Source: a virus. From it: 64,000 nucleotides of DNA. The stretch is taken from positions 1 to 64,000 of the IMG/VR virus record IMGVR_UViG_3300008117_000011. One strand, 5' to 3'. Made by a program: the position numbers and the translations under genes. This document shows, piece by piece, positions 13,004-49,366 of the stretch (positions within the stretch are counted from its first letter, which is position 1; each line of letters starts with the position of its first letter). The notes beneath the pieces are model-generated. The model was not told the origin of the DNA and did no database searches. It saw nothing but the letters and a program-made list of their open reading frames with translations.

Positions 13004-13723
13004 TTATCCTAATGTTTGCATACAAGGAGACCCATCTTTACGGGTAGCACCTAACTTTAATTTTTCAATAGCGCTAGCGTACTTTGTAGAGTCAAGTTTA
13101 ATCCATTTTATACCTTTATCTTTAGATGCGTACCAATTATTATTTTTAAAGGCGTAAGTCCATTCTTTATCACCACTTAGCGTACAATGTTGGTTAGCTG
13201 GTATGACAATTTGGTTATCAACCACTGGTCTTTTCTTTAATTTTGTTCCGTCGCAAAATAAAGTCAAAATTGTTTTAACAAATCCTTCTGGTGACCCAAG
13301 AGCTACTAGTTTTTTATTGTTATGATACATTATTGTTCCTTTACCACCACTTTGCATTCCTGTAACATCACCACAAGTCATTGAAAATTTTCCGTCTAAC
13401 TTTTGTGTTAAAGTTTCATTTCCGCGAGTATAATCAATATGACCATCAAACATTATATGTTTGTCATCTGCAGCTGGTGATAAAATAGTACCGGTTGGGA
13501 TTTTAATTTTAATACCTTTCATATCACCAGTTAATGTTACTGGTTTGCCTTCAATTGTTGCTTTTTGTGTGAAATCATCAGCATCAGTACCAGCCAAGCT
13601 TAATGTTTGTGTATTTTTTAAAGTGTAAGTTCCGTCGGAATTTAACTTATAAGTCTGTTCTTCTATAACTCTTCTTACAATTCTTGTAAGATCTGTTTCT
13701 GTAAGTGTAATTATTCTTTTCAT
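13004..13723 (-). CDS. Class A leader protein, GATRxDGSPC C-terminal family
   Basis: The leader ITLTETDLTRIVRRVIEEQ ends with IEE-Q. The body is beta-rich with an FCDGTK motif, and the last 34 residues (WIKLDSTKYASAIEKL, LGATRKDGSPC) are nearly the same as the end of the 16888 protein. The two share the FC-GT-K core with 7106. This suggests a duplicated packaged protein with a conserved C-terminal domain of unknown function, possibly disulfide-stabilised. Confidence 0.8.
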   Translation of the reverse strand: MKRIITLTETDLTRIVRRVIEEQTYKLNSDGTYTLKNTQTLSLAGTDADDFTQKATIEGKPVTLTGDMKGIKIKIPTGTILSPAADDKHIMFDGHIDYTRGNETLTQKLDGKFSMTCGDVTGMQSGGKGTIMYHNNKKLVALGSPEGFVKTILTLFCDGTKLKKRPVVDNQIVIPANQHCTLSGDKEWTYAFKNNNWYASKDKGIKWIKLDSTKYASAIEKLKLGATRKDGSPCMQTLG

Positions 13724-16853: not shown

Positions 16854-16886
16854 TAAAAAACCCCTCCGGTTAGAGGGGATTGTTTT
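16854..16886 (-). terminator. Shared-type terminator hairpin, copy 1
   Basis: CCCCTC pairs with GAGGGG (16861-16878), with an A run on the left giving a T run on the minus strand. The 26 bases from CCCCTCCGG onward are repeated exactly at 19681. Confidence 0.8.
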
Positions 16887-16887
16887 T

Positions 16888-17550
16888 TTAACCTAAAGTT
16901 GGTGTACAAGGTGATCCATCACTACGTGTCGCACCTAATTCTAATTTTTCAATAGCACTAGCGTACTTAATTGGGTCTAATTTAATCCAATTTATTAAAT
17001 CTCTTTTGGTTGCGTACCAATCACTTCCAACTCTACCGTAAAACCATTTACTATCACCACCTAACATACAATATTTATCTTTTGGTATTTTTACTTTATC
17101 ATCAGTAATTGTTTTGTCTGTCAAATCTTCCCAAGGTTTTATTGTTGTACCATTACAGAAAGTTTTTTTCAAAAATGACATTAAACCATTTGATCCTGGA
17201 GTTATATTTTCGTGATATTGCTTATCTTCAATATAAAATTCATCTTTATCACAATACATAATAGCTTCATTATATATTTTACGCTCACCTTTTTTTACTT
17301 CACTAAAGAATACACCATTTTCTGGGTTGTTATTTTTAAAGTCTCTGTAAACTTTACTTCCCTTTGGTAGTGTATACTGTTTAGGTTCGTAAAATTCGCC
17401 AGCTCTTCTATCAACAACGTGGTCTCTAGTTAAAGTGTAAGTACCTTTTGTTTTATCAAATTGTTCACTAACAACTTTATTTTGGGGATAATATTTTGAT
17501 AATATTTCCTGTTTTTCTTTTTCTTCAATTAAAATTCTTTTGTAGCTCAT
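16888..17550 (-). CDS. Leader protein, GATRxDGSPC C-terminal family
   Basis: The N-terminus YKRILIEEKEKQEILSKYY is a class D leader variant (IEE, LSK). The body has FCNGTTIKPW, and the C-terminus (WIKLDPIKYASAIEKL, LGATRSDGSPC, PTLG) is nearly identical to that of 13004. The N-terminal halves differ, so the conserved part is the C-terminal domain. A packaged protein of unknown function is inferred. Confidence 0.8.
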   Translation of the reverse strand: MSYKRILIEEKEKQEILSKYYPQNKVVSEQFDKTKGTYTLTRDHVVDRRAGEFYEPKQYTLPKGSKVYRDFKNNNPENGVFFSEVKKGERKIYNEAIMYCDKDEFYIEDKQYHENITPGSNGLMSFLKKTFCNGTTIKPWEDLTDKTITDDKVKIPKDKYCMLGGDSKWFYGRVGSDWYATKRDLINWIKLDPIKYASAIEKLELGATRSDGSPCTPTLG

Positions 17551-17557
17551 AACATTT

Positions 17558-17565
17558 ATAAATAT
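17558..17565 (-). promoter_or_regulatory. RTATTTAT motif
   Basis: ATATTTAT on the minus strand, 7 bp before the ATG at 17550. Confidence 0.5.
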
Positions 17566-17572
17566 TTAACTT

Positions 17573-18151
17573 TTATAAAAAATTCTTTTCAAGGTAATTC
17601 TTTAAATTAGCTTTCGCTTTAAATAGATTTGATTTAGACGTTCCGGTTGATATTCCAAGTTTTTTAGCAATTTCATCGTGTGTTAAATCATCAAAATAAT
17701 ATAACTCTAAAACTTTTTTATACATTGGTGATAGTGTGTCTATTGCATCTCTAATATCTTTTTCTGAATATTGACCCATAAATAAATCGTCATATTCTTC
17801 ATCCTTTGGATTGTATTTTGAAAAATCAAAATCTTTGACCTGTTTTTTATTTTTTTCTTTTCTTAATTCATCCAAAATATGATTTCTTATTACCATTGAT
17901 ACCCAACCGGCAACATTTTCACCTCTAAATTGATCAAATTTTTGATAAGCTTTAATAAACCCTGTTTGACAAAAATCTTGTGCTTTTTCATAATCACCAT
18001 CAGAATATTTTAAACAAACTGATTTTAACATTTTATCATAAAGTTCATTGTATATTTTATTAAAATTATGTTCTATTAAAATATTTTGTACTTTAGATTC
18101 TTTAATGTCAACAATTCTACTATATTGTGATTCGGTAATAATTATTTTCAT
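17573..18151 (-). CDS. ECF-like sigma factor carrying a class B leader
   Basis: Residues 1-12 are the leader MKIIITESQYSR (ITE-S). Residues 35-105 read as sigma-70 region 2: an acidic/aromatic helix, then AQDFCQTGFIKAYQKFDQF, then NVAGWVSMVIRNHILDELRK. Residues 135-190 are region 4 with a clear helix-turn-helix (LTHDEIAKKLGISTGTSKSNL). Sigma factors direct RNA polymerase to promoters in the cytoplasm. The leader suggests it is packaged and injected, so it could start phage transcription at once. A natural candidate target is the RTATTTAT motif. Domain call is confident; packaging is inference. Confidence 0.88.
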   Translation of the reverse strand: MKIIITESQYSRIVDIKESKVQNILIEHNFNKIYNELYDKMLKSVCLKYSDGDYEKAQDFCQTGFIKAYQKFDQFRGENVAGWVSMVIRNHILDELRKEKNKKQVKDFDFSKYNPKDEEYDDLFMGQYSEKDIRDAIDTLSPMYKKVLELYYFDDLTHDEIAKKLGISTGTSKSNLFKAKANLKNYLEKNFL

Positions 18152-18156
18152 ATTTT

Positions 18157-18164
18157 ATAAATAT
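18157..18164 (-). promoter_or_regulatory. RTATTTAT motif
   Basis: ATATTTAT on the minus strand, 5 bp before the ATG of the sigma factor gene at 18151. If the sigma factor uses this motif, the gene would be autoregulated. Confidence 0.5.
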
Positions 18165-19301: not shown

Positions 19302-19652
19302 TTACTCAACATCCAATAAAAATTCTGATAAGTCATCATCGTAATTTTCGGTACACTCCTCTTCTTTAATTAATCTATAAAAGTTATCTCTAATATAATC
19401 TAAAAAATTATGACGAACCCATTTATGTATTAGACTTGTTGTGTTATTTATTTCATCAGCCGAATCCTCAACTTCAATTCCAAAATCCTCTCTATTGTCA
19501 GAGACAAGCCAGCATACTTCGGTTACAAATTCCGCTAATGTAAAATCGCAAATATGAGATTTAAGTTCCTCAAATGTTTCGTCAATTACGTTTTGAATTT
19601 GTGTAAACCTACGGATTAATTCCTTTTGTGATTCGGAGATAATAATTTTCAT
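19302..19652 (-). CDS. Class B leader protein, acidic C-terminus
   Basis: The start at 19652 (MKIIISESQKELIRRF) gives the class B leader with ISE-S; the Met at 19676 lies upstream of the RTATTTAT motif and is rejected. The body is helical and the last 20 residues are acidic (EECTENYDDDLSEFLLDVE). Function unknown. Confidence 0.8.
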   Translation of the reverse strand: MKIIISESQKELIRRFTQIQNVIDETFEELKSHICDFTLAEFVTEVCWLVSDNREDFGIEVEDSADEINNTTSLIHKWVRHNFLDYIRDNFYRLIKEEECTENYDDDLSEFLLDVE

Positions 19653-19656: not shown

Positions 19657-19664
19657 ATAAATAC
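19657..19664 (-). promoter_or_regulatory. RTATTTAT motif
   Basis: GTATTTAT on the minus strand, 4 bp before the ATG at 19652. It decides the start codon of that gene. Confidence 0.5.
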
Positions 19665-19673: not shown

Positions 19674-19705
19674 CAAAAAACCCCTCCGGTTAGAGGGGAT
19701 TGTTT
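19674..19705 (-). terminator. Shared-type terminator hairpin, copy 2
   Basis: CCCCTC/GAGGGG at 19681-19698 with the same CGGTTA loop as copy 1. It follows the stop of the LysM gene at 19706. Confidence 0.8.
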
Positions 19706-21318: not shown

Positions 21319-21346
21319 TAAAAAACCCCTCCGGTTAGAGGGGGAT
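21319..21346 (-). terminator. Shared-type terminator hairpin, copy 3
   Basis: CCCCTCCGGTTAGAGGGG at 21326-21343 with the A run on the left. It lies downstream of the 21366 gene on the minus strand. Confidence 0.8.
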
Positions 21347-29730: not shown

Positions 29731-30414
29731 TTACATTACTTTATTTAAAAATATTTTGATTGCGTCTATTATTTTTTGTTCGTTATGGTCAAAATCTTTT
29801 TTGTAAATATTAAAAGGGTCAATTACTTCAAATGTAATTAAAACATCAAAGATTATTGCTATTTGGTGTCTTTCATTGATCCCTTTTTCTATAGCCCATG
29901 TTTTTCCATTTTTTTCAAAAAAAAGGGTTTTAACAATTCTAGATGTTTTTTCATCTCTAACGGGTATTTTTTTAACTTCAAAACGTCTTTTTAAAAAATT
30001 TAGTATTTTTTTAGTTATATATTCAGTTTCTTCTCTTAATACTTTTCTTATTGATTCTTGTAGGTTCGTATATAGTTCTGATATTAATCTTTCATATCTA
30101 ACCTTGATTCTATCTTTATAATATTCTTCTAAACTTTTTTTAGCGTCAACATACCATTGGATATCTCCCGGTATTGTACTATATAATTCATAATGGATCC
30201 CATCAATTAAAATTGAAATTGTTACTTCTACAAATCTTTTTAAACTCATAGCGTCCCCACCATTTTTAATTAAATTAAAAAACATATTTGATGCCATATC
30301 TAATGACTCCTCAAACTCTCTTTCTAAATCCTCGTGTGGTACTCTACGTCGGATTGCTAACATAAAATTGGTTTCTTCCCTTAATATTCTTCTTATGGAT
30401 TCTTGTAGGTTCAT
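29731..30414 (-). CDS. Double-leader fusion protein
   Basis: Residues 1-14 are MNLQESIRRILREE and the next 100 residues are an RRRV family body (AIRRRVPHEDLEREFEESLDM). At about residues 116-129 a second leader appears without a Met (NLQESIRKVLREE), followed by a different 98-residue body rich in K and F. It reads as two cargo genes fused in frame. Cleavage at both sites would give two mature proteins. Functions unknown. Confidence 0.85.
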   Translation of the reverse strand: MNLQESIRRILREETNFMLAIRRRVPHEDLEREFEESLDMASNMFFNLIKNGGDAMSLKRFVEVTISILIDGIHYELYSTIPGDIQWYVDAKKSLEEYYKDRIKVRYERLISELYTNLQESIRKVLREETEYITKKILNFLKRRFEVKKIPVRDEKTSRIVKTLFFEKNGKTWAIEKGINERHQIAIIFDVLITFEVIDPFNIYKKDFDHNEQKIIDAIKIFLNKVM

Positions 30415-30418
30415 CTAT

Positions 30419-31522
30419 TTATGATTTAATTATTCTCATAATATTTTTAATCCTTTTAATATGTTCATTTAATCTTTGATTATTACCTAATTTTTGAAAA
30501 AACCAATTATACAATTTATTTTTTTTCATATTTTCAAGTGATTCATAATCTTCAAACTGAACATATCTGTCATGAACATCTTTTAATTTTTCAAAAGAAC
30601 AATCACATCTTTGACCTTCTTTATATATTTTATTTTCAAAATAATCAAGTTGTTCTTTGTATTCACTATTATTAGGATTATTATCTAATCTATTTTTCCA
30701 ATATTTTATATTATTAATATAAGTCTCATAATCACTATTAGTATTATCCACAACAGCCGTCATACTACGAGGATTTTGACAAATTGGGCAATAGTACCCC
30801 CATGACCAATCAGACATTTTTTCTGGTTTTTCTCCGTCAGGGTTACATTTTTTACAGACCTCAGATTTTTTTACCATTCCTTTTGGGTAATCGGCATCAG
30901 AACTCACCCATGGCATCATTGCGTCTGAACTACATTGATTACAAACATCTCTGTATTTACCTTCTTTTCTATTTTTGTAATATTCATCATTTTCTTTTCT
31001 TTTCTTATCTTGTTCTTTGTATGTTTTATAATGTCTACCACCAAACAAATAATCAAAATAAACTTTATTACCCATATAATTTACAACATCATCATTAGGT
31101 GTCCATATTGGAACATCTTCAACACTTTTAAAAATATTCATCTCTGAACCATCATAATCTGTGTAAGGTAAATATTCTCCCCTTTTTTTAAGCCATTCTT
31201 GATAAAACTTACCAGCGGCATCTTGATTTCCATTAAAAAATTTATCAACCAAAATATCTTGCATAATATACCTATCAAGTGGTCTATTATTTTTATCATC
31301 TTCTATTGCACTAATAGCCTTAAAATTATCTATTGCCCTCTGTCTAACATCATCAGTCCTACCAAAAGTATTGGGTCTTGTTGGACTAATTGGCTTTCCA
31401 TAACCTTTTTCTTTTAATACGGTTTCCAATTTATTTAAAAATTTTGATGGGTCACCTTTTACGTAGTTATCGTAAAAAACATTATCAATAATCTCATTCC
31501 AATTTATTTCTTTATCTTCCAT
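30419..31522 (-). CDS. Zinc-finger-like protein downstream of a detached leader
   Basis: A 367-residue protein with Cys pairs CNQC, CKKC, CPIC and CDC between about residues 195 and 310, forming one or two zinc sites. The N-terminus (MEDKEINWNEIIDNV) has no leader, but a complete class C leader ORF ending in a stop lies 10 bp upstream. The body has charged helices and a tail ending RIKNIMRIIKS. Zinc sites suggest nucleic-acid or protein binding; otherwise unknown. Confidence 0.8.
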   Translation of the reverse strand: MEDKEINWNEIIDNVFYDNYVKGDPSKFLNKLETVLKEKGYGKPISPTRPNTFGRTDDVRQRAIDNFKAISAIEDDKNNRPLDRYIMQDILVDKFFNGNQDAAGKFYQEWLKKRGEYLPYTDYDGSEMNIFKSVEDVPIWTPNDDVVNYMGNKVYFDYLFGGRHYKTYKEQDKKRKENDEYYKNRKEGKYRDVCNQCSSDAMMPWVSSDADYPKGMVKKSEVCKKCNPDGEKPEKMSDWSWGYYCPICQNPRSMTAVVDNTNSDYETYINNIKYWKNRLDNNPNNSEYKEQLDYFENKIYKEGQRCDCSFEKLKDVHDRYVQFEDYESLENMKKNKLYNWFFQKLGNNQRLNEHIKRIKNIMRIIKS

Positions 31523-31532
31523 ACTATATAAT

Positions 31533-31571
31533 TTATTTTAATATTCTTCTTATGTTTTCTTGTAGGTTCAT
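31533..31571 (-). CDS. Orphan class C leader mini-ORF
   Basis: ATG at 31571 encodes MNLQENIRRILK and then TAA, exactly where genes such as 34142 continue with EET. It overlaps the stop of 31568 by 4 bp (ATGA) as a real gene start would. It is either a decapitated leader of the 30419 gene, a stop that is read through, or a decoy peptide. Confidence 0.6.
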   Translation of the reverse strand: MNLQENIRRILK

Positions 31572-31951
31572 ATTACTATATTTCTAATTTGTTTACCTCT
31601 CATTCCTTCAGTGGTCTGGCCAGAATAAAATGATTCACCCATAATAAATATTCTTTTTCCTTTATGTTCCTCCAAGAATGATAAAATAAATTCCATTGCC
31701 GTTAACACAGTATCTACCATTTCGTATTGAAGGCCATCTTGGTCAATAAGTTCTTTTCTTATAGAATTAAATTTTGATGTCAACTGGTGTTCTATAATTC
31801 TAAATACCGTATTTGTTCTAGCAATAAACTGTTTACCATCAATTGTAATCAAAGGAGAATCAATTATTTCAAATTCATATGTTGTATCTCTTCTTATAAT
31901 TGTCTCAATTTGATACTCCAATATTTCGTTAAGTTCTTCTTGTAGGTTCAT
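31568..31951 (-). CDS. Class C-like leader protein
   Basis: The leader is a diverged form (MNLQEELNEILEYQ). The body is alpha/beta with FIARTNTVFRIIEHQ and a C-terminal MGESFYSGQTTEGMRGKQ. Function unknown. Confidence 0.78.
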   Translation of the reverse strand: MNLQEELNEILEYQIETIIRRDTTYEFEIIDSPLITIDGKQFIARTNTVFRIIEHQLTSKFNSIRKELIDQDGLQYEMVDTVLTAMEFILSFLEEHKGKRIFIMGESFYSGQTTEGMRGKQIRNIVI

Positions 31952-31956
31952 ATGTT

Positions 31957-31964
31957 ATAAATAT
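31957..31964 (-). promoter_or_regulatory. RTATTTAT motif
   Basis: ATATTTAT on the minus strand, 5 bp before the ATG at 31951. Confidence 0.5.
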
Positions 31965-31995
31965 ATCATACCTAGATTACCTAAGTATAATATAC

Positions 31996-32295
31996 CTATT
32001 TGTTGTATATCTTCCCCCTAATACTTTTACCATATTTATTTTTTATATATTCATATAACCCGGAATGAATTTTTTTCATCTCCTCTGTTTTTGAAAGCCA
32101 GACAATGAATGTATCCATATTAAGACTTTCGGTCATAATGTGATTTGAAATATCTGTTATTAGTCTATGTTCCCACACATCCGGTTTAAGTGTTTTAGAA
32201 AGCATCTTTGACCCATTACAATTTAAATATAAATTAAATACCTCATCAATTAATGGTACTCTTCTGGCAATTATGTGTTTTACGTCTGGACCCAT
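31996..32295 (-). CDS. RRV family protein without leader
   Basis: The N-terminus MGPDVKHIIARRVPLIDEVFNLYLN resembles the body start of the RRRV family (29731, 35177) but has no class C leader before it. The remainder is helical with a basic end. It may be a non-packaged relative. Function unknown. Confidence 0.65.
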   Translation of the reverse strand: MGPDVKHIIARRVPLIDEVFNLYLNCNGSKMLSKTLKPDVWEHRLITDISNHIMTESLNMDTFIVWLSKTEEMKKIHSGLYEYIKNKYGKSIRGKIYNK

Positions 32296-32324
32296 TTTTT
32301 AAAGATAATAAAACTACCCATAAT

Positions 32325-32354
32325 AAAAAAGGGGACCTATATCTGGTCCCCTTT
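32325..32354. terminator. Intrinsic terminator
   Basis: GGGGACC pairs with GGTCCCC, preceded by AAAAAA. It ends the 32374 gene on the minus strand. Confidence 0.75.
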
Positions 32355-32373
32355 GTAATGTGTGATAAATATA

Positions 32374-32709
32374 TTAATCACCACAATGAAGGTGATAGTA
32401 TTGTTTTACTTTATCTCCGAATATATCTTTGATATAATTTTCCATTGCTTTGTATGCCTGTTCCCACTCCGGTGTTGCATAACTAATATGCTCCTCAAAA
32501 TATGCGTAGTACATATCTTCTATTACACCGGCTGTAAGATGTATTAAAACCTCATCCCCATTTCTATAGCGACAAATCTTCTCAGGACGATATGTTGTTG
32601 ACATATGGTAATATATCAAGTCTTCTAAATTAACAATTCTTCTTCTTATGTAGTGCGGAAGATTTGTTTCTTCTTTTAGAACTCTTCTTATGTTTTCTTG
32701 TTGGTTCAT
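32374..32709 (-). CDS. Class C leader, RRR family
   Basis: The leader is MNQQENIRRVLKEETN. The body begins LPHYIRRRIVNLEDLIYYHM and continues helical, ending KQYYHLHCGD. It shares its layout with 34654, 35177 and 35666. It overlaps the next gene's end by 1 bp. Function unknown. Confidence 0.8.
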   Translation of the reverse strand: MNQQENIRRVLKEETNLPHYIRRRIVNLEDLIYYHMSTTYRPEKICRYRNGDEVLIHLTAGVIEDMYYAYFEEHISYATPEWEQAYKAMENYIKDIFGDKVKQYYHLHCGD

Positions 32710-33572
32710 TATTTATTGTGATATATATTATATAACTCTTTAATTTCGTCCTCAAATACATTGGAAACTTCTGTAACAAATTCTATTTCTTCTTCCGATG
32801 GTAAATCTTCCCACCCAAGTTCATATTTATTCCAAATAATTGCTTCCACAGCCCTTAAAGTTAATTCATATTTAAATTGTTCATAACTTTCCGTTTCGTA
32901 ATATACTTGATCGGCATTTATTGGGAGCAGGTATTTAACCTCATCTAAATCAATTCTCCTATGAAAGAATTTTGATTCATTTAATATTCTTCTTATGGAT
33001 TCTTTTAATCCTAATAAATCATCCATACTAATTGTTGCACTATCATTACCTAGTTTATTAAGCATATCCGCAAATACATTAGGTTCTTCAGGTGTTTTTG
33101 GTTCTTCATATTTAGTTTTGTTACTTGGGTATTTTCCTGTTTTTTGATAAACCTCCATATCATCATCTTTTTGTTCGTCAGAACTAATTAATTTAAGAGC
33201 CGAAGGTGGTATTGGGTCTAAAGTTACATAGTATTTAAAATCATTCCCATCATCTTTATGTATTGGGTCATGAAACCATTGGTTATTTATTTTAGATAAA
33301 TCTATTTCCCATTCATCCCCACCAAAAAAACTATATTCAGGGTCTGAAGCAAAGACCATTGGTAATGGGTCTGAATCAGGAAAATTATGAGACATATAAT
33401 TTGAGGTGTATTTACCAACTTTGGGTAATAACCCGTGTTTTTGGATACTTTCTCTATTTTTATACGTTGTTCTATGTCGTAACACCCCTTTTGGATGTGC
33501 GGGAACTAAAACATCTCTTAATTGTTTAACCTCTTCCCTTAATATTCTTCTTATGGATTCTTTTAAGTTCAT
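32709..33572 (-). CDS. ART-like protein fused to an RRI family module
   Basis: The start at 33572 gives MNLKESIRRILREE; the more distal Met lies beyond the RTATTTAT motif. Residues 20-150 resemble an ADP-ribosyltransferase-like or KptA-like fold (VLRHRTTYKNRESIQKHGLLP, VFASDPEYSFFGGDEW, YYVTLDPIPPSALKLI). About residue 190 a second leader without Met (GLKESIRRILNES) precedes an RRIDLDEV body. The enzyme call is tentative; packaged ARTs such as T4 Alt modify host RNA polymerase. Confidence 0.7.
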   Translation of the reverse strand: MNLKESIRRILREEVKQLRDVLVPAHPKGVLRHRTTYKNRESIQKHGLLPKVGKYTSNYMSHNFPDSDPLPMVFASDPEYSFFGGDEWEIDLSKINNQWFHDPIHKDDGNDFKYYVTLDPIPPSALKLISSDEQKDDDMEVYQKTGKYPSNKTKYEEPKTPEEPNVFADMLNKLGNDSATISMDDLLGLKESIRRILNESKFFHRRIDLDEVKYLLPINADQVYYETESYEQFKYELTLRAVEAIIWNKYELGWEDLPSEEEIEFVTEVSNVFEDEIKELYNIYHNK

Positions 33573-33577
33573 ATGTA

Positions 33578-33585
33578 ATAAATAT
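33578..33585 (-). promoter_or_regulatory. RTATTTAT motif
   Basis: ATATTTAT on the minus strand, 5 bp before the ATG at 33572, and 11 bp from the divergent TATATTTG element. Confidence 0.5.
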
Positions 33586-33596
33586 ATTATTATTCT

Positions 33597-33604
33597 TATA
33601 TTTG
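33597..33604 (+). promoter_or_regulatory. Bacteroidota -7 element TATATTTG
   Basis: TATATTTG lies 8 bp before the ATG at 33613. Confidence 0.6.
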
Positions 33605-33612
33605 TGGATATT

Positions 33613-34155
33613 ATGGATTGTATCGTCACCGAAAATAAAAAATCAAACACCATTAAACTTATTCATAGTAAAATAAGTGAGTGGGGAGTAATTGGTGCTA
33701 GTCAAAGACTTGGTCTTTCTATTGATAAGTTTGTTGAACTTGGTGTTTTTAACTATCGTTTTGACACATTTCTTAATTACACAGATCTTCTTTATTTATC
33801 ACTATATGTTGTTGAAAAGAGTGGTCTGGTAAGTAAAGTTGATGAGACTTATGATTTTATGTGGTGGGGTGGGAATTCTAGGATGTATTTTGATTGTGCT
33901 GACTTAATTAATAATAATACTATGGTCGGATATGGAACACCATATTATGATGATATTCCTTATCTGGAGATTGAATCTGAAGTTTTTAATAAGTATTCTA
34001 TTGATTTTCGTAGAACTTATAAGTTAAAGTCCATTTCAGAATTTAAATCATTTAATGAATTTGAATCTTATATCTTAAATGATGTGTCAAAACTTGTATC
34101 AGACACAATCTTTGATGTTATTGAAAGAGTTGAAAGGGAAATTAAGGAAGGGTAA
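33613..34155 (+). CDS. GYATPY-family protein with weak leader
   Basis: The start at 33613 (MDCIVTENKKSNTIK) is supported by the promoter; VTE-N is a possible leader remnant. A helix (IHSKISEWGVIGASQRLGL) aligns with DEWGLWKTIDRLNLN in 36537, and VGYGTPYYDDIPYLEIE with the GYATPY motif. It uses a host-type promoter, unlike its leader-bearing paralogs. Its end overlaps 34142 by 14 bp. Function unknown. Confidence 0.78.
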   Translation: MDCIVTENKKSNTIKLIHSKISEWGVIGASQRLGLSIDKFVELGVFNYRFDTFLNYTDLLYLSLYVVEKSGLVSKVDETYDFMWWGGNSRMYFDCADLINNNTMVGYGTPYYDDIPYLEIESEVFNKYSIDFRRTYKLKSISEFKSFNEFESYILNDVSKLVSDTIFDVIERVEREIKEG

Positions 34156-34657
34156 CTGATGGTTCAAAACTTATAATATAATCATCTTCGTCTAATTTAA
34201 GTTGTCTTGCCAAATCATATGTAAAATCCTCAAATAGATATTTTAACTCCCATTTCATTGCTTTAAGATTAAAACCATCTTCACCATCTTTCAGATCTGC
34301 CAAATCATATGTTTTTTCCTCCCCATTCCTTAATGTAACTGTTACTGTTCCTTCTAATATCTTATAATAAAAGGTCATAGTCCCATACATATCAAGTTCT
34401 ACGTGTCTTATCTGGAATTTAAAATCGTATCCTTCTGTGTAGTCAGATTTAAAGTCATTTGATGAAAATATTTGATTCTGGAGATGTCGTCCAAGAAGTA
34501 TTGTTGGTCTTTCATTTAAAATCTTTCCCAGATTATTAATTCCATTTACTTTTTTTGCAACCGGAATGATACCATCCTTCTTAATCATCTTAAGTAGCCT
34601 GGACTGGATGGATGTTTCTTCTTTTAATATTCTTCTTATGTTTTCTTGTAGGTTCAT
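34142..34657 (-). CDS. Class C leader, NGI-NLxKxL family
   Basis: MNLQENIRRILKEETS leads into LLKMIKKDGIIPVAKKVNGINNLGKIL and then a beta-rich C-terminal domain containing GTVTVTLRNGEEKTYDL, which resembles GTVELIMTNDDRTHNL in 39709. It overlaps 34654 by 4 bp. Function unknown. Confidence 0.82.
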   Translation of the reverse strand: MNLQENIRRILKEETSIQSRLLKMIKKDGIIPVAKKVNGINNLGKILNERPTILLGRHLQNQIFSSNDFKSDYTEGYDFKFQIRHVELDMYGTMTFYYKILEGTVTVTLRNGEEKTYDLADLKDGEDGFNLKAMKWELKYLFEDFTYDLARQLKLDEDDYIISFEPSVTLP

Positions 34658-34983
34658 TTTTTTTTCATATTTCTATAATACATAATAAGAACTGGATCAT
34701 AAACTGATATCATATGTTTTACAAATGTATCTATATCTTCTTTTGGTAATTCTTTCTCAATCTCAATATTGTATTTGTTAAAAATATAGTTCTCTAGCGT
34801 TGCCTCAACTAATTTGTATTTGAACTCTTCTAGTGAGTTTGAATCGTAATACATATATGGAATTCCCTTTCTCATCATTTTCTCAAATTTATGATGATCA
34901 ACCCTTCTAGTGAAAAAATAAGGTAGTTTATTGTTTTCGGTTTCTTCTTTTAATATTTTTCTTATGGTTTCCTGTAAATTCAT
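34654..34983 (-). CDS. Class C leader, RRV family
   Basis: MNLQETIRKILKEET leads into YFFTRRVDHHKFEKMMRKGIPYMYYDSNSLEEFKYKL. The last part aligns with YYETESYEQFKYEL in the second module of 32709, so those two are closest relatives. Function unknown. Confidence 0.82.
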   Translation of the reverse strand: MNLQETIRKILKEETENNKLPYFFTRRVDHHKFEKMMRKGIPYMYYDSNSLEEFKYKLVEATLENYIFNKYNIEIEKELPKEDIDTFVKHMISVYDPVLIMYYRNMKKK

Positions 34984-34989
34984 ATAACA

Positions 34990-34997
34990 ATAAATAT
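34990..34997 (-). promoter_or_regulatory. RTATTTAT motif
   Basis: ATATTTAT on the minus strand, 6 bp before the ATG at 34983. Confidence 0.5.
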
Positions 34998-35073
34998 ATA
35001 ACCGGGAGGTTTAATTAATACTTTTTTATTGTCATAAATGGGATATATACTCGGATTTTTTCCGATTATATAT

Positions 35074-35139
35074 TTAAAATTCGTCATTAAGTCCGGCAAC
35101 TGTTATAAGTATAATCCCAACAATTAAAATTAGTGTCAT
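35074..35139 (-). CDS. Tiny membrane peptide
   Basis: A 21-residue frame (MTLILIVGIILITVAGLNDEF) is one hydrophobic helix with a short acidic end. It is followed by a CGGA/TCCG hairpin near 35050-35065. Weak evidence, but similar tiny TM genes occur at 38713 and 56044. Confidence 0.4.
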   Translation of the reverse strand: MTLILIVGIILITVAGLNDEF

Positions 35140-35176
35140 ATTATTTTTTACTGAGATATAAGTAAAAAATAATTAA

Positions 35177-35515
35177 TTATCTATAAATGTGTGTATACTC
35201 TTTTTTGATTTTATCATCAAAGTATTCCGAAAGGGCTGAAAAGGTCTCCTCATGCCATTCTTCATTTTCATCAAATGATGTATATAACTGCCAGTGAAGT
35301 CCATCAATTGTCATTGATATTACAACAAATTTATATCTATCTAAATCTGGTTTTGTTCCAGTTCTTGAGTATTCTCTTTGGAACATTTCTTTTGCTGAGT
35401 CTAATGACGATTCAAATTCTTCTTCAATATCCTCTTGTGAAACCCTACGTCTTATAAATGCCGGAAGTTTTGTTTCCTCTTTTAATATTCTTTTTATGGA
35501 TTCTTTTAAATTCAT
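35177..35515 (-). CDS. Class C leader, RRRV family
   Basis: The start at 35515 (MNLKESIKRILKEE) is fixed by the motif at 35522. The body AFIRRRVSQEDIEEEFESSLDSAKEMF aligns with RRRVPHEDLEREFEESLDMASNMF in 29731, and both continue with a VISMTIDGLHWQLY-type stretch. Close paralogs of unknown function. Confidence 0.83.
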   Translation of the reverse strand: MNLKESIKRILKEETKLPAFIRRRVSQEDIEEEFESSLDSAKEMFQREYSRTGTKPDLDRYKFVVISMTIDGLHWQLYTSFDENEEWHEETFSALSEYFDDKIKKEYTHIYR

Positions 35516-35521
35516 ATAATC

Positions 35522-35529
35522 ATAAATAC
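35522..35529 (-). promoter_or_regulatory. RTATTTAT motif
   Basis: GTATTTAT on the minus strand, 6 bp before the ATG at 35515. Confidence 0.5.
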
Positions 35530-35539
35530 TATTAGAAAT

Positions 35540-35568
35540 AAAAAACCCCATCTTTATCAGATGAGGTG
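35540..35568 (-). terminator. Probable terminator
   Basis: CCCCATC faces GATGAGG with one mismatch, and AAAAA on the left gives the minus-strand T run. It lies 98 bp beyond the stop of 35666. Confidence 0.55.
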
Positions 35569-41050: not shown

Positions 41051-41599
41051 ATGAAACCTAAATTTTATATATTGTTTTGTTATTTTACTATTGTGTTTGG
41101 TTTAGGTCTGTACGCATTTACTTTAAGTAAACAAGAAAGAGTACGTAAAATAGAATTGTCATATTGTTCAATGTATGATACAAGAACGCCAACATCTCTT
41201 AAAATGTACGCCTTAATTGAAAAGTACTCTTCAGAATATAATATACCAAAATATGTTGCTTATAACGTTGCGTACCGGGAAACAAGGTATATGGGTCCGT
41301 TCCATTGGAGATATAATCCCTATCAAACGTCTTGTGCCGGCGCTGAAGGGCCAATGCAGATTATGATTAAAACTTGTAATGGGTTAAATAAGTCAAGATA
41401 TTCAAAGAAGGAACTTAGAAGAAACCTTGAGTTAAATGTACGTACAAGTATGAAACTTCTTAATCGTTTACATAAAAAATATAAAAACTGGTCGGTTGTA
41501 TGTGGTTGGTACAATACCGGTAGACCTATTGTGAATGAGTATGGTAAGTACTGTGGTACAAATCTAAATTATAAAACCAAGTGGATTCAATTAGATTGA
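41051..41599 (+). CDS. Lytic transglycosylase (SLT domain)
   Basis: An N-terminal membrane anchor or signal (residues 6-25) is followed by an SLT fold: YIKVAY-type helix with the catalytic Glu in AYRETRY, GAEGPMQIM, ELNVRTSMKLLNRL and CGWYNTG. These enzymes cleave the glycan strands of peptidoglycan in the periplasm. Paired with 40719 under a host-type promoter. The end overlaps the convergent 41587 gene by 13 bp. Confidence 0.88.
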   Translation: MKPKFYILFCYFTIVFGLGLYAFTLSKQERVRKIELSYCSMYDTRTPTSLKMYALIEKYSSEYNIPKYVAYNVAYRETRYMGPFHWRYNPYQTSCAGAEGPMQIMIKTCNGLNKSRYSKKELRRNLELNVRTSMKLLNRLHKKYKNWSVVCGWYNTGRPIVNEYGKYCGTNLNYKTKWIQLD

Positions 41600-44094
41600 T
41601 TCCCTCTATATATAACAATGTTGGCCCTAGTAATTCTTTTATTGGGTCCGACATTGTATCCTTTTTCTTTAAACTCCTCATTAAAGAATTCTCTAAAAGC
41701 TTCCTTAAATATATCCCCAATCCATCCTCTTGTTCTAATTTTACTCTCAGCTAAATCCATTATTTTAAAATCATAAGCCAGAGAGTTATTTTTAACATCA
41801 TAATATCCTAAACAATTCTCACCCTTATTATCCCCAAAAATAAAAAGTTTTGTCTTTGAGTCATTATAAGAATAAGATTTAAGTTCTTTTTTTAAAATCT
41901 TCTTAATTGCATTTTTTAATATTCTTTCACTTTTTTCTTCATTCTCATTAAGACCTCTTTTCTTTCTTCCCTGACAATGCGCTCTTTGTGAAAACCCTTG
42001 TGGATTATTACAATCAATACTTCTTTTATATTTTTCAGACCACTTTTCATTAACCTCTTTTTGGTTTGCAATTTTTCTGATACTTACAATTTTAACACCC
42101 TCACCTTTATTTTTAAGTGTGACCTCGTTTTCATTTGGGTAAAGTAAATTGTTATATATTGTTTGGTCAATATCCACCAATTCTTTTGGCGCAAGAACTG
42201 TGATCATAAATGAATTATCTCCAATACCATCAGCAAATGAGTGACTATCTAACAAATCTTTTTTGTTTTTTGCATAGTGATCTCCGGGTTTATCCGTATC
42301 AATATCTTTTCTATCGTCCGCTTTTATTATTCTAAATAATTTAATTTCTTCAGGTAGATTCTTAATTGATTTAATAATATATTCAATTTCTTCTTTTGAT
42401 TCTTCTTCAGAATAGCCCATATGTTTTTTACCTTGGTCTATTAAACTTTTCAATTGTTTTTTTGATAAGTTGAGTGGATCTTTTACTTCGGAAATAACTT
42501 TTTTTTTTCTTAACGATTCTGTAATCGTATTTTGTTTTTCAATTTCATCATTTAATACTCTTACAAATTCTCTTTGTATAGCTTTTGTTAGTTCAACATA
42601 AGTTCTAATTTCAGGTTCCTTTTCTTCACCCTCGGATCCAATTGATTGATTTTCTTTTTCAATAATTTTCATCGCAGCTTCAATTTGTTTATCTGACAAC
42701 GAACCAAATTTATTGTATTTGTATTGTAAATCATTTACAAATTTATTTGTCCCTAAATAATTTAAAATTGGTTTTACCTCATCTGGGGTATTCATTTCAA
42801 ATTTTACTGGGTTATTACGATACAAATATGAAAGACCTGAAATGTTTGTAATACATTTGTGACCACCGGAGTTTGCTTGAACTATATCCCAACCATTAAT
42901 AGATATTTTATTTAAAAGTTCTTTTTGTTTATCAGATAATGTTCTATATAGTTTTGTTGAGATGTTCTCAATAATTCTTAAAATATTTTCGTTCACACCT
43001 TTAGTACTAAAAGATTCTCTATTTCCATAAAGGGCCACAAAATCTTTATAGGTAAAACCAACAGAAGAATAATCTGTTTTAAATTCTGACAATTTTTTAA
43101 TCTCACCAAATGTAATCTTCATATCTTTAAGTAAAGTTTCAAATTTACTTAATACAACATCTTTCATTTTACCTAAATCAACCCCTTTAAGTGCTCTATC
43201 TTCTTTGAATGGGTTACAAGAAGCTTGGACTAGACCTAGTGGCCAAGCAATAACAATAAAGTCAGCATCTGGATTATTTTTAAATGGTGTGTATCTATCA
43301 TATGACCCAGGTTCTCTCATATTACCACCACCATATTGCACGATGATATTACCAAGCCTTTTTACTTCACCACTTTGTTTTTGTTTTTCAATATATGCTT
43401 CTTGGTTTTTTGTAAGTTCATCAGTATTAGCATAACCCTTATCTTTAATTTGTTTTTTAATATTATTTAAAATACTTAAAAGTGATGGTTGTGCATTCAT
43501 TACAATGTAATCTAGAAACCCCGGTTTGTTTTTAAATGCTAAAAGCAATTTATTTGCAACAAGACCCATCTTAATTTTATTTGCTCTTGACGTATCACTT
43601 GGGTCAAACTTGAATAGGTAGTTCATAACCATTTCTGGTGTAATCTTATTTACAGCAAAGTTTGCTGAGTCAACAATTGATATTAACTGAACATCTTCAT
43701 CCGGAAATATTAATGATGGTGATACAACTTGTGAAATAGTTTCAACGTTTGATCTTGATGGTCTAAAGTTTGTTGATGTTCCAGCTTCAACACCGGCTTG
43801 TGTGTCGTGATGATCTGTATGGATTTCAAACATTGGTTTTCCGTGGGCAAAGTCAACAAGTACTGGCATAACTTCTCCGTGAGCATCCGCTTTCTTAATT
43901 GACCATTCTTTATCACCATATTGGATTAATTCTGCGTCAACAACTTTGATTCCGTATTTTTCTAAATAGTTTTTCATTGCTAGGGCTGTAGTAACCCCAT
44001 CAAGATCCATATGATAATATATCTTAGCTTTCTTATATCTTTGTGCTAATTTATTTATATTTCTGATTCCAGATTCTTTTAAAATAGATTTCAT
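41587..44094 (-). CDS. DHH-like phosphoesterase fused to ART-like domain, multi-leader
   Basis: The start MKSILKESGIR is leader-like (LKE-S). Residues 20-290 look like a DHH phosphoesterase: DLDG at 30-33, VDFA at 80-83, HTDHHD at 92-97. Residues 524-538 hold an internal leader (ITESLRKKKVISE). Residues 540-675 resemble an ADP-ribosyltransferase: LFRII, a SHSF segment and PNENEVTL with an ExE. Then SIDCNNPQGFSQRAHC, a Cys/His motif I recall from large-phage proteins, another basic helix, and a 100-residue C-terminal domain. Processing would release separate enzymes. T4 packages its ART Alt in a similar way. Confidence 0.75.
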   Translation of the reverse strand: MKSILKESGIRNINKLAQRYKKAKIYYHMDLDGVTTALAMKNYLEKYGIKVVDAELIQYGDKEWSIKKADAHGEVMPVLVDFAHGKPMFEIHTDHHDTQAGVEAGTSTNFRPSRSNVETISQVVSPSLIFPDEDVQLISIVDSANFAVNKITPEMVMNYLFKFDPSDTSRANKIKMGLVANKLLLAFKNKPGFLDYIVMNAQPSLLSILNNIKKQIKDKGYANTDELTKNQEAYIEKQKQSGEVKRLGNIIVQYGGGNMREPGSYDRYTPFKNNPDADFIVIAWPLGLVQASCNPFKEDRALKGVDLGKMKDVVLSKFETLLKDMKITFGEIKKLSEFKTDYSSVGFTYKDFVALYGNRESFSTKGVNENILRIIENISTKLYRTLSDKQKELLNKISINGWDIVQANSGGHKCITNISGLSYLYRNNPVKFEMNTPDEVKPILNYLGTNKFVNDLQYKYNKFGSLSDKQIEAAMKIIEKENQSIGSEGEEKEPEIRTYVELTKAIQREFVRVLNDEIEKQNTITESLRKKKVISEVKDPLNLSKKQLKSLIDQGKKHMGYSEEESKEEIEYIIKSIKNLPEEIKLFRIIKADDRKDIDTDKPGDHYAKNKKDLLDSHSFADGIGDNSFMITVLAPKELVDIDQTIYNNLLYPNENEVTLKNKGEGVKIVSIRKIANQKEVNEKWSEKYKRSIDCNNPQGFSQRAHCQGRKKRGLNENEEKSERILKNAIKKILKKELKSYSYNDSKTKLFIFGDNKGENCLGYYDVKNNSLAYDFKIMDLAESKIRTRGWIGDIFKEAFREFFNEEFKEKGYNVGPNKRITRANIVIYRGNQSN

Positions 44095-45048: not shown

Positions 45049-45917
45049 TTAAACTTAATTTCTTCTGGTTTAATTGGCCCTGACTTAAATATAACTTTAT
45101 CATATGTAAATCCTTTTTTTGATTTGATTCCGGTTGTTATTTTCAAATCAGAATCATTTTCAAATATGTAATAAATACCTTTTGTTTTGTTTACAAAAAT
45201 TAAATAATCAACATCGTCTAAATTATATCCAGAAGCTGGATACTTTTGTGTTAAAACATCAAAAGATGTCTTGTTACCATTTAAAAACAAAAGTTGTTTA
45301 ACCTGAAATGTTGCTTTTGTATCTCCTTTTGTTAATATAAAATCAACACCTTGTTTTGCATCACTTTTAGATCCTGGACAAAAATTAATATTACCGGGTA
45401 ATTTAAGTGCGTTGATTAAAGTATCAAATACCGATTTTTCTGATTCAAAACCAAATCTGATTTTTTTTAAATTTTCAATTGCAAGGTTTTCAATCTTATC
45501 TGTATGTAGATTGTTCTTTATGTATTCTTTTACGTATTCAATAAAATTATCAACTGTTTCATCAACTGTTGTTTCAGCTCTAAATGATTTTAAAAGAGAA
45601 TCAAGTACTACACCACTTGTTATAAAGAAATTTATAACAGACCAGTTTGAGTTTGGGACATTCATTTTTTGACTATAATCAGTAAATGTATGTACACCAA
45701 TAACTCCATTAAGTGTATAACAATCAATTGCCGGATTATCAGCGGTTCCCCAATTTCCAAGTGGTATAAAAATTTCCTTAAGTACTCCTAAGAACTTGGA
45801 TTTAAAATCTTTGTTATTTTTTAATGAATCTGAAGTTAATACATTTCTAATTAACTCTTCTTCTTTTATAATTCCCATCAATTTTTTTATTCTACTATTT
45901 TCAACTATACTAGTCAT
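45045..45917 (-). CDS. PD-(D/E)XK-like nuclease with leader
   Basis: The start at 45917 (MTSIVENSRIKKLMGIIKEEE) gives a leader with IKE-E. Residues 150-210 carry a restriction-endonuclease-like pattern: GFESEKSVFDTLI, then PGSKSDAKQGVDFILT and ATFQVKQLLFL, that is E ... D ... QxK. Packaged nucleases can attack host DNA. The fold call is by motif and could be a non-catalytic relative. Confidence 0.65.
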   Translation of the reverse strand: MTSIVENSRIKKLMGIIKEEELIRNVLTSDSLKNNKDFKSKFLGVLKEIFIPLGNWGTADNPAIDCYTLNGVIGVHTFTDYSQKMNVPNSNWSVINFFITSGVVLDSLLKSFRAETTVDETVDNFIEYVKEYIKNNLHTDKIENLAIENLKKIRFGFESEKSVFDTLINALKLPGNINFCPGSKSDAKQGVDFILTKGDTKATFQVKQLLFLNGNKTSFDVLTQKYPASGYNLDDVDYLIFVNKTKGIYYIFENDSDLKITTGIKSKKGFTYDKVIFKSGPIKPEEIKFK

Positions 45918-46611
45918 ATTTTTCCATATATTTACTATCAATTATGATTGTCTTTGCTTTTTTAGTTACAAGATTTATTTGATCAAGAACAATTCTGTTG
46001 TTACCATCTCTATTTAAAACTAAAGTCCCAGAACCACCCGGTTCGTTATGAATATTTAAATCAATAACTTCCTTTGCCACATTTAATACCCAATTATGAA
46101 ATGATGTTTCACCAAAAAACATTTCATAATATGATCTAACATTCATAATAGATTTGTTTGTTGATGTACTAACCTCATCTACTATAAAATCACCATACCC
46201 ATAAGTAAAATCAATAAGTAATGTATCATAACTTTTTATATAATTAAATAATCGTTCAGATGTGTTATCCGTGTATTGAAATTCTGTTGTCTTTTCTTTA
46301 TTTTCTCGTGCGTCATATTTTGCAACTAAAATTATTTGTCTTTTTTGTGGGTCTATTGTCACATCACACCACCAGGTATTATCCCAATATTCTACTTCCT
46401 CGGTAAACATTTCACTTCCGTGATCTTCTACTAATTTTATTATAAAATCTTCAAAGTAATCTAAAATAGGAACTTTAAATCCTTTTTCAGACCAAAATGC
46501 TGATGGAACATATTCAATTCTTTCAGAATACATATCAATATTAACCCCAATAGGTCCAATTGGATTAAGATATGCCATAAGTGCTTTAAATGTATTTTTA
46601 TAATTCATCAT
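45910..46611 (-). CDS. Tandem paralog array, member 1
   Basis: The N-terminus NTFKALMAYLNPIG is a variant of the shared KxLKxxxAYFRGF start. The body has a WWCDVTIDPQKRQI strand, a DFTYGYGDF motif, and ends with a strand-rich tail. Last of six genes chained by 1-14 bp overlaps. Function unknown. Confidence 0.8.
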   Translation of the reverse strand: MMNYKNTFKALMAYLNPIGPIGVNIDMYSERIEYVPSAFWSEKGFKVPILDYFEDFIIKLVEDHGSEMFTEEVEYWDNTWWCDVTIDPQKRQIILVAKYDARENKEKTTEFQYTDNTSERLFNYIKSYDTLLIDFTYGYGDFIVDEVSTSTNKSIMNVRSYYEMFFGETSFHNWVLNVAKEVIDLNIHNEPGGSGTLVLNRDGNNRIVLDQINLVTKKAKTIIIDSKYMEKYD

Positions 46612-47308
46612 TAAAATTATCTAGTGTTATTTGAATATTCATATCTGTAGGTTGATATTCTTCTTCAAATTCATATCCATCAATTAATACTTTACCATTT
46701 GCGTAAACAATAATTCTACCTTTAAAACCATTTTCACCATTCCAATAAAGATTTACATTACGTTTCATAATATCGTTTACAATGACCCAGTATCTATCTT
46801 CATCTTCACTATCAATTCTTGCGTCTATATCGTTTACATAAGCTTCAAATACTTCACCGTCATCCCATCTTCCATAAAAATGTAATTCAAGTTTTTTAAT
46901 AATATCATCTTCAAATATGTCATAAATAATTTCTTTTGTTCTTGTAGTAATATCATCAAGATTTACCATTTCCTTTTTTTTAATTGATATTTCTTGCTTA
47001 CACTCACTTGTAAAAACAATTCTATTTTCAAAAGGATATATTAAAGCGTATAAATACCAAAGTTCACTATATTCATAATCGTTATATTTTCTAAATTCTG
47101 GTGTAATTTTATTTAGTATTTCACTAAAAATTGAGATAATTGTGTCCGGAGGAGTTACAAGTGATTTTTGTCCGTCACTTTTTCTAAAGTAAAAATGCTT
47201 GTTCCAGTCTGGTTCAATTGTGTTTACATCAAATGGAATATCTGTGTCTACAGTTTTTACTTTTAGACCTTTAAAATACGAAAAAAACATTTTTAATTTA
47301 TTCTTCAT
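46598..47308 (-). CDS. Tandem paralog array, member 2
   Basis: MKNKLKMFFSYFKGLK start; then NDYEYSELWYLYALIYPFENRIVFTSECK, which matches NDYNEDDWWSLEVSIYPFENEIHFTSECK in member 5; then a KLELHFYGRWDDGEVFE strand. Function unknown. Confidence 0.83.
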   Translation of the reverse strand: MKNKLKMFFSYFKGLKVKTVDTDIPFDVNTIEPDWNKHFYFRKSDGQKSLVTPPDTIISIFSEILNKITPEFRKYNDYEYSELWYLYALIYPFENRIVFTSECKQEISIKKKEMVNLDDITTRTKEIIYDIFEDDIIKKLELHFYGRWDDGEVFEAYVNDIDARIDSEDEDRYWVIVNDIMKRNVNLYWNGENGFKGRIIVYANGKVLIDGYEFEEEYQPTDMNIQITLDNFNDEL

Positions 47309-47993
47309 CTTCTTGTTTTAAATTATCTAGTGTAACTACAATGTCTAAACTTTCGGTAACATCATCATTTGTATTCCATTCGTGCATAACTTCAATATGG
47401 TTTCTTGTAACTTCAATTGTTCCTTGGGATCCTTCATTTATCTCCCAACCACCAAAATCTTCAAGTAACTGATAACAAATATTTTCAATTTCTCTAGTTA
47501 TTGTTCCAGATTTTTTTCTTGAAGAATAACTATCGTGAACTTGTCCACTATCGCCACCACCATCGTAAGTTATTTCAAGTGAATCAATTCCTTCTTTATC
47601 TAAAAATTTATCAAATTCTTCAAAATACTGAGAAACACTTTCACCATCTTCATCCCTATCATAATATATTCCAGAATCTTCTGTTCCATACTGAGTAAAA
47701 TCTGTACTTTCAAAAACTAATCTATCTGGATATATTGTCCCATCAACAGTAAAGTAATCACTTCCATCACCATAACTTCCAAGCCCACCATCATATAAAT
47801 CTTCAGCGTACAATTCAGCGATATCATAAAATATTTGCTCCATATTTGATGACATCTGAAATCCTGGGTTTTTTGCACAAGTAAAATCTATATAATCAAT
47901 TGAATCTCCATCATTATAAAATTGTATTGTAAAATCAATGTTACAATTTAGACCTCTAACATACCCTAAAAGGGCTTTAAATTTTTTATTCAT
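47298..47993 (-). CDS. Tandem paralog array, member 3
   Basis: MNKKFKALLGYVRGLN start; SLEITYDGGGDSGQVHD and FGGWEINEGSQGTIEV match member 6 (QFSGYGDSGEIHE, FGGWEIDDGSRGEFEI). Acidic overall. Function unknown. Confidence 0.83.
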   Translation of the reverse strand: MNKKFKALLGYVRGLNCNIDFTIQFYNDGDSIDYIDFTCAKNPGFQMSSNMEQIFYDIAELYAEDLYDGGLGSYGDGSDYFTVDGTIYPDRLVFESTDFTQYGTEDSGIYYDRDEDGESVSQYFEEFDKFLDKEGIDSLEITYDGGGDSGQVHDSYSSRKKSGTITREIENICYQLLEDFGGWEINEGSQGTIEVTRNHIEVMHEWNTNDDVTESLDIVVTLDNLKQEDEE

Positions 47994-48681
47994 AATCTTC
48001 TATATTATTTGGTGTTAATTCTATTCTCATATTACTCGGAAGTAATCTTTCTTGATGGTGTTTGTAGCTTACTTCTATTTTATTCTTTTCTATTCTCACG
48101 CTACCACTAACTCCGTCAATTCCCCATTCAATAGATTGATCTACAACATCCATAATGTTTTGAGCTATATCATAATATTTCTCTTCAATATTTGAGTCTA
48201 ATTCATAAATGTTTTTTTCATCACCATTTATATTCAAATTTGTAACTTCACCTTCATCTACACCCATCCAAAAATCAATTTCAATAAAATTATTATCGTC
48301 TTTTATATGTTTTTCTAATTCAACAATAGCCCAATCCTGCAATCTTTTTAAATATGTTTTTTTTTCTTTTTTTTCTGTAAATTTTTGATAGTCTTTGGCG
48401 GTAACAATTATTTGATTATCAAATGGTCTAATAGTAATACTTAAAATCCAATAATCAGAATACTCCCTTGAAACATTGTCTAAAATTTCTCTTTTTAATT
48501 TTCTACTAAAAAGTGATTTTATTGCATTGTTAATTGTTAAATTCGTATTCGTTTCTTTACCATCAATCATACAAAGTCCGTCATCATTAAATTCCCAATC
48601 AACCATATCAAATTCTATATCGGCTCGTGGTTTATTAAAACCCCTAAAATAGGCTAATATCATTTTTAATTTATTTTTCAT
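47986..48681 (-). CDS. Tandem paralog array, member 4
   Basis: The start MKNKLKMILAYFRGF at 48681 is preferred over two upstream Met codons that lie in the tail of member 5. The body contains YWILSITIRPFDNQIIVTAK and EIDFWMGVDEGEVTNL. Function unknown. Confidence 0.82.
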   Translation of the reverse strand: MKNKLKMILAYFRGFNKPRADIEFDMVDWEFNDDGLCMIDGKETNTNLTINNAIKSLFSRKLKREILDNVSREYSDYWILSITIRPFDNQIIVTAKDYQKFTEKKEKKTYLKRLQDWAIVELEKHIKDDNNFIEIDFWMGVDEGEVTNLNINGDEKNIYELDSNIEEKYYDIAQNIMDVVDQSIEWGIDGVSGSVRIEKNKIEVSYKHHQERLLPSNMRIELTPNNIEDYE

Positions 48682-49366
48682 CCGTATCATCAAAAAAATC
48701 TGGCGTTATTGTAATGTCCATATCTGTATTGCCCCATTCAACAAGTCTGTTCTCAAGGTCAAGGAAAATATCATCACCCCATATTGTGATATCTCCAGTA
48801 AAACCACCATCATCGGTCCAGTATTTTCCATAATTTTTTGACATTAACTCGTATGTTACATCGTGAAATAACATATCAAGTTCATTTGTTGTTTTAATAA
48901 ACTTGTCATCAAAAAGAATATTAAAAATTTCAACATCCCAAATACCTCTAAAATCAAACTGAATTTTTGTTAAATTATTTTCTTCTTCAATTTCGGTTAT
49001 CTTATCCTGGAATTCTTCAGATAAATCAGAAAACTCCATTTGTAGTTGTTCTGGAACTGAATTTGCGTATTTGCACTCACTTGTAAAATGTATCTCATTT
49101 TCAAATGGATAAATACTAACTTCTAATGACCACCAATCATCTTCGTTATAATCATTATAATGATGAAATGTTGGCATAAGTTTTTTAATAACCTCTTCTA
49201 TAATATCACGAATTGGTTTTGCCGGTTCTATAAACTTTCTAGTACCACCTAAAGATATATCACTAAACTCTTCAATTGTGTTATAACCAAAAGTTACGTT
49301 GAAAAACAACTCCTCTTGTTTAAACCCTCTAAAATATGCAAAAAGTGCTTTTAATTTATTTTTCAT
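48671..49366 (-). CDS. Tandem paralog array, member 5
   Basis: MKNKLKALFAYFRGFK start; WWSLEVSIYPFENEIHFTSECK; FDFRGIWDVEIFNI; ending DITITPDFFDDTDEK. The C-terminal IT(L/P)DNxxD pattern is shared across the array. Function unknown. Confidence 0.83.
   Translation of the reverse strand: MKNKLKALFAYFRGFKQEELFFNVTFGYNTIEEFSDISLGGTRKFIEPAKPIRDIIEEVIKKLMPTFHHYNDYNEDDWWSLEVSIYPFENEIHFTSECKYANSVPEQLQMEFSDLSEEFQDKITEIEEENNLTKIQFDFRGIWDVEIFNILFDDKFIKTTNELDMLFHDVTYELMSKNYGKYWTDDGGFTGDITIWGDDIFLDLENRLVEWGNTDMDITITPDFFDDTDEK

Follow-up and report, generated by a model that had tools for sequence, protein, structure and literature searches.

We propose that a large phage with T4-type head genes packs an ECF-type sigma factor in its head. 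The window analysed, a 64,000-nt stretch of DNA, belongs to the 223,671-base record IMGVR_UViG_3300008117_000011, and with a probability of about three in four one of its genes encodes a sigma factor that is made late, targeted to the head by a leader, trimmed, injected and then active on the host core polymerase. We infer targeting, cleavage, virion presence, injection and activity from sequence; the sigma fold, the leader common to other proteins, the protease and T4-type head genes of the same phage and the conservation of a site at the domain edge are established. Packaging, which an earlier note on this DNA had proposed, appears well supported by the leader module, the protease, the presence of the domain-edge site in all relatives and the swapping of leaders and fusion partners.

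The gene encodes an ECF-type sigma factor

The earlier note had read a clear ECF-like sigma factor with regions 2 and 4 at exactly 17573-18151, and domain, family and structure searches confirm this. Pfam detected Sigma70_r2 (PF04542, aa 38-100, 1.3e-12) and Sigma70_r4_2 (PF08281, aa 132-183, 1.8e-15), both above the gathering cut-off; only sigma domains were found in the protein, with no polymerase catalytic subunits. Regions 2 and 4 are joined by a short linker, without region 1.1 or 3, which is the ECF sigma-70 layout. The protein matches the phrog_1740 sigma family (1.8e-26). When its AlphaFold model was searched with Foldseek, the top matches were ECF sigmas (SigE/SigL/SigH/SigW/RpoE), and the best matches in the PDB were ECF sigmas within transcription initiation or anti-sigma complexes. 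Among known phages, the closest relatives are the crAss-like sigma-W proteins (phrog_1740), at ~30% identity; these and the sigmas of Cronobacter phage GAP52 belong to the same two-domain family, but in the papers searched neither a leader nor virion status is described for them.

Leader genes abound around the sigma gene, which belongs to a unit of four genes delimited on both sides by terminators of identical sequence (Table 1). The identical terminator hairpins CCCCTCTAACCGGAGGGG (16861-16878, 19681-19698 and 21326-21343) flank cargo cassettes and are possible sites of cassette exchange. Elsewhere in the window, six similar genes in a row (45910-50031) start with MKNKLKMFFSYFKG or alike and may form a paralogous set without the class B leader.

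Table 1 Features of the sigma gene, its unit and a related locus, in window positions
Feature	Position	Strand	Basis
ECF-type sigma factor gene, 192 aa, putative N-terminal head-targeting leader	17573..18151	(-)	ATG start; Pfam, phrog, structure search
Leader, residues 1-27 MKIIITESQYSRIVDIKESKVQNILIE, predicted propeptide	18071..18151	(-)	sequence; pLDDT; E27 nearly invariant in A2
(I/L)xE sites of the sigma leader	E7 18131-18133; E18 18098-18100; E27 18071-18073	(-)	sequence
Sigma-70 region 2	17852..18040	(-)	Pfam
Sigma-70 region 4 (helix-turn-helix)	17603..17758	(-)	Pfam
RTATTTAT motif ATATTTAT, late-promoter-like, 13 nt before sigma ATG	18157..18164	(-)	sequence
RTATTTAT motif GTATTTAT heading the four-gene unit	19657..19664	(-)	sequence
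RTATTTAT motif before gene 16888-17550	17558..17565	(-)	sequence
116-aa protein, class B leader MKIIISESQ, first gene of unit	19302..19652	(-)	sequence
368-aa protein without class B leader; paralogue at record 91529-92650, 38% identity	18189..19295	(-)	sequence comparison
220-aa protein whose C-terminal half is a paralogue of leader protein 13004-13723 (46%)	16888..17550	(-)	sequence comparison
Terminator at the end of the unit; the same sequence recurs at 19681-19698 and 21326-21343	16861..16878	(-)	hairpin
Terminator that ends the unit before and bounds the sigma unit upstream	19681..19698	(-)	hairpin
DHH-like 835-aa protein; relatives fused directly to sigma in other phages	41587..44094	(-)	sequence comparison

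The sigma factor opens with a leader module common to unrelated proteins

The class B leader that the earlier note saw at the start of the sigma factor is indeed there: MKIIITESQ is matched at 7 or more of its 9 positions in nine other genes of the same phage, always at the N-terminus, and none of 68,971 internal 9-mers of that phage's proteins reached this level. A degenerate DNA pattern for MKIII[ST]E[ST]QY, run on IMG/VR, matched at least 120 stretches. Among the matches listed, the 90 complete leader proteins comprise at least 28 unrelated body families, with peptidase-like, kinase-like and DHH-like bodies recognized by eye; a tblastn search of the leader peptide against phages gave no match. 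The class B leader is therefore a module common to unrelated proteins. Its codons differ where residues stay fixed, which indicates that selection acts on the peptide. A second (I/L)xE at residues 10-21 occurs in 81% of the leader proteins among the matches listed and in 71% of family representatives, against a background of 12% in random windows.

In the AlphaFold model of the sigma factor, residues 1-27 have pLDDT below 50 and the confident fold runs from residue 28 onward. The boundary between residues 27 and 28 is where cleavage at the last (I/L)xE site would free the mature sigma.

A cluster of class C leaders (MNLQESIRRILREET) occupies 29731-35551. At record positions 180809-182890 (L015:3809-5890), leader-like stretches containing (I/L)xE sites connect the three parts of a 693-aa protein: an HEXXH-like N-terminal part, a full Fe/Mn superoxide dismutase (3.6e-39) and one further domain. 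This protein looks like a virion polyprotein carrying superoxide dismutase.

The same phage encodes a gp21-family protease and a T4-type head

Tail sheath, tube and baseplate hub genes are present in the 223,671-base record, in which a search found no protease, capsid or portal gene. This absence reflects a gap in the record that is filled by IMG/VR contig 3300031951_000024 (G010, 154 kb), which derives from the same phage (>99.9% identity over 73 kb). At its two ends the contig overlaps the record by 62 kb and 11 kb, and its intervening 81 kb are missing from the record, so that the genome measures ~305 kb. The T4-type head module of G010 contains a portal (PF07230, 7e-75), Peptidase_S77 (PF03420, 1.8e-22), which is the gp21-family prohead protease, the capsid protein gp23 (PF07068, 4.5e-73) and an acidic scaffold-like protein. 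Seven of ten leader-bearing IMG/VR contigs carry the S77 protease.

An (I/L)xE specificity of this S77 protease is suggested by analogy with T4 and by the N-terminus of the capsid protein. The consensus of the T4 prohead protease resembles (I/L)xE. In the capsid protein such sites fall at E6, E23, E44, E51 and E60 and the next only at 324, a spacing that fits the 65-residue propeptide of T4 gp23 (PMC9958956) and supports this specificity. The proteases of T4 and giant phages cut after glutamate (PMC5694885).

The sigma factor and its phage share the features of T4-type capsid-targeted internal proteins: a short common leader, an (I/L)xE between leader and mature part, and a gp21-family protease together with T4-type head genes. 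In T4 a 10-residue targeting sequence is removed by gp21 (PMC9026906, PMC9958956); the first ten residues of IPIII are enough for packing, and positions 8 and 10 determine processing (PMC9026906). By analogy with this layout, the sigma leader may act as a capsid targeting sequence, and the phage protease would cleave the sigma at (I/L)xE.

The domain-edge site persists while N-terminal arrangements change

We collected 45 distinct complete viral homologues of the sigma by three scans that were not leader-based and one Pfam search; the relatives are all metagenomic. An (I/L)xE at the edge of the sigma domain is present in 45 of 45, no more than 14 residues before the domain in 44 and a few residues further in the last, where 12% would be expected to have one within 14 residues by chance. 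The site is kept through several architectures and two leader classes: a class B leader directly on the sigma (22/45), a class C leader, such as MKRSLIRQILREE, directly on the sigma (3/45), a class B leader followed by a 150-aa helical domain, a site and the sigma (6/45), and a DHH-like protein followed by a site and the sigma (14/45). No leader was found in four bacterial relatives. The 45 homologues are related, so these counts are not independent, and the repeated changes of arrangement, at least eight on the sigma tree, are the stronger point of the sequence argument. The sisters L211 and L215 differ by the entire helical domain and both keep leader and site, and in L258 and L270 a class C leader stands in place of class B. 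MKIIIKESQ is the start of a divergent sigma from another phage, which was identified with Pfam, independently of the leader.

For the fusion domain of L023/L034, a comparison with known phages gave no match, and its structural model was poor (pLDDT 55). Another phage (G002, IMG/VR, 268,739 bases) has two Peptidase_S77 genes and a very divergent leader-bearing ECF sigma. The DHH-like protein of the window contains internal leader-like sites and is related to proteins of huge phages of 630-640 kb; over ~33 residues (680-713) it shares 70-86% identity with hypothetical proteins of cyanophages, the remainder being unrelated. It could be an injected nucleotide-signal hydrolase.

Proposed route and promoters of the sigma factor

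According to our proposal, the sigma would be made late in infection from its RTATTTAT promoter, as the capsid genes would be, and its 27-residue leader, serving as a capsid targeting sequence, would bring it into the core of the prohead. The gp21-family protease would then cut after (I/L)xE, with E27 as the last site, leaving a leader-free two-domain ECF sigma in the head with the DNA. On infection the sigma would be ejected with the genome, bind host core RNA polymerase and direct it, ahead of the synthesis of any phage protein, to a group of promoters, most likely the early ones of the phage.

Motif discovery for promoters of the sigma returned only RTATTTAT, TAnnTTTG types and terminator remains. 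TAnnTTTG, a Bacteroidetes housekeeping promoter element, stands near the start of many genes lacking RTATTTAT in the window, the rest of the record and G010, hinting that these are early genes read by the host enzyme. Together with the Flavobacterium phages found among the closest isolates by capsid protein, the TAnnTTTG elements ahead of many genes point to a host that probably belongs to the Bacteroidetes. Immuto, a Flavobacterium phage and, judged by its capsid protein, the closest Bacteroidetes isolate, has other leader-like N-termini; a paper on Baltic Sea Flavobacterium phages makes no mention of immuto and reports no mass spectrometry.

With so many host-type promoters, early transcription may not need a packaged sigma, which may instead be devoted to some of the early genes or to genes of the host. 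A packed and injected sigma that mainly targets host genes or sequesters RNA polymerase, rather than reading phage promoters, is accordingly a tentative variant of our proposal, favoured by the host-type promoters that the early phage genes apparently already have; ECF sigmas are also compact and able to compete with the housekeeping sigma. We consider this variant rather doubtful.

The RTATTTAT motif that the earlier note placed ahead of the sigma gene was found there (Table 1). It is present upstream of 20 of 33 leader genes (61%) and 58 of 345 others (17%), against ~2% by chance, mostly starting at -12 to -15 or -20 to -23 from the start codon, and it precedes protease, scaffold, capsid, fibre, baseplate and tail genes. 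Next to start codons it is also enriched in related records without a detectable ECF sigma, though these may be incomplete; it is not enriched in the huge phages LR756501 and LR756502 nor in immuto, and only slightly in LR745206. Its position at head and tail genes and its persistence without this sigma lead us to read RTATTTAT as what looks like a late promoter and not as the sigma's template. Two other sigmas are at hand to read it. One is RpoD-like (record 108762-109586, phrog_351, 6e-53), the other a gp55-like protein in the head-side stretch with a weak phrog_234 match, which is kept at 56-69% identity across six further records. Neither has a leader, and both types were ruled out as packaged candidates on that account. 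RpoD-like and gp55-like sigmas are common in the group, and the ECF sigma was clearly found in two of ten leader-bearing large records, which may be incomplete, so that its absence is unproven for any one of them; it is an accessory gene. The reader of RTATTTAT is probably the gp55-like or RpoD-like sigma.

These data also weigh on the view that the protein is a conventional late or middle sigma that works within the infection that produces it and reads RTATTTAT, its own promoter included, with the leader a relic or serving another role. Phage sigmas normally act in the cell that produces them, the motif does lie upstream of the gene, and the protein weakly matches the late sigmas of phrog_234 (8.7e-4). 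However, RTATTTAT is enriched where no ECF sigma was detected, a separate gp55-like protein is conserved, and the shared leader and domain-edge (I/L)xE are left unexplained, which makes this view unlikely. Assignment to the T4 gp55 type itself was rejected, since the phrog_234 score is only 8.7e-4 and a separate gp55-like gene exists. The suggestion of the earlier note that the sigma acts on RTATTTAT templates finds no support and is probably wrong: the motif fronts capsid genes and persists in records without a detectable copy of this sigma, and the gp55-like sigma is a better candidate for reading it. The motif common to the sigma gene and the head genes more likely means that the sigma is made late, in time for packing, and is not what the sigma reads, the sigma's own promoters probably being of another kind. 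Very unlikely is a leader that targets another phage structure (membrane, replication compartment) or turnover and keeps the sigma in the producing cell: N-terminal leaders can have other roles, but the sites at the end of this one fit the prohead protease that the phage itself encodes, fusion junctions have the same site, leader genes share the promoter motif of the capsid genes, and T4 internal proteins have exactly such a layout (PMC9026906).

Relation to known systems

The packaged sigma that we propose resembles the T4 internal proteins IPI, IPII, IPIII and Alt, in which a short leader is borne by unrelated proteins of a phage with T4-type portal and capsid. The likeness is one of layout, the only aspect compared: the T4 leader is cut after glutamate by a gp21-family protease, an event that is predicted here (PMC9026906). 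Alt acts on host RNA polymerase (PMC9026906). Unlike in T4, the cargo here would be a sigma factor, the leader has 27 residues and three sites instead of 10 residues, and the cargo set is far larger, with polyprotein-like fusions that contain internal sites. T4 gp55 is likewise a sigma encoded by a phage whose head is of the T4 type, but the protein described here combines a leader with complete ECF regions 2 and 4, and the gp55-like gene is the better candidate for a late sigma.

Phages with a polymerase in the head offer a second parallel, in that a transcription component is proposed as head cargo here. The virion RNA polymerases of phiKZ-like jumbo phages, AR9 and N4 read the first genes without new protein synthesis (PMC7598289, PMC13282480). 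In contrast to these enzymes, the cargo here would be the specificity subunit only and must borrow the host core. The earlier note knew of no established packaged sigma, and this agrees with the literature searched, which lay mostly outside the subscription journals and held no report of a packaged or virion-borne sigma; jumbo phage reviews, in the portions available, describe packaged polymerases and no packaged sigma.

Implications

With slightly less confidence than for this one phage, we think it probable that packing and injection of a processed ECF sigma extend to a widespread group of large, T4-like phages whose hosts are probably Bacteroidetes, the sigma sometimes being part of a polyprotein with a DHH-type enzyme or a helical domain. 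No virion-borne sigma would have been known before it, and the host polymerase would be taken over through a specificity subunit that the phage injects. Injection of polymerases and of polymerase modifiers is already known from phages. If our proposal is true, there is a third route to seize host transcription at time zero, for which a protein of fewer than 200 residues suffices. Leader and cleavage site together would provide a rule for listing injected cargo from sequence, with ~30 candidates in this genome, and would open the injected repertoire of large phages to direct testing.
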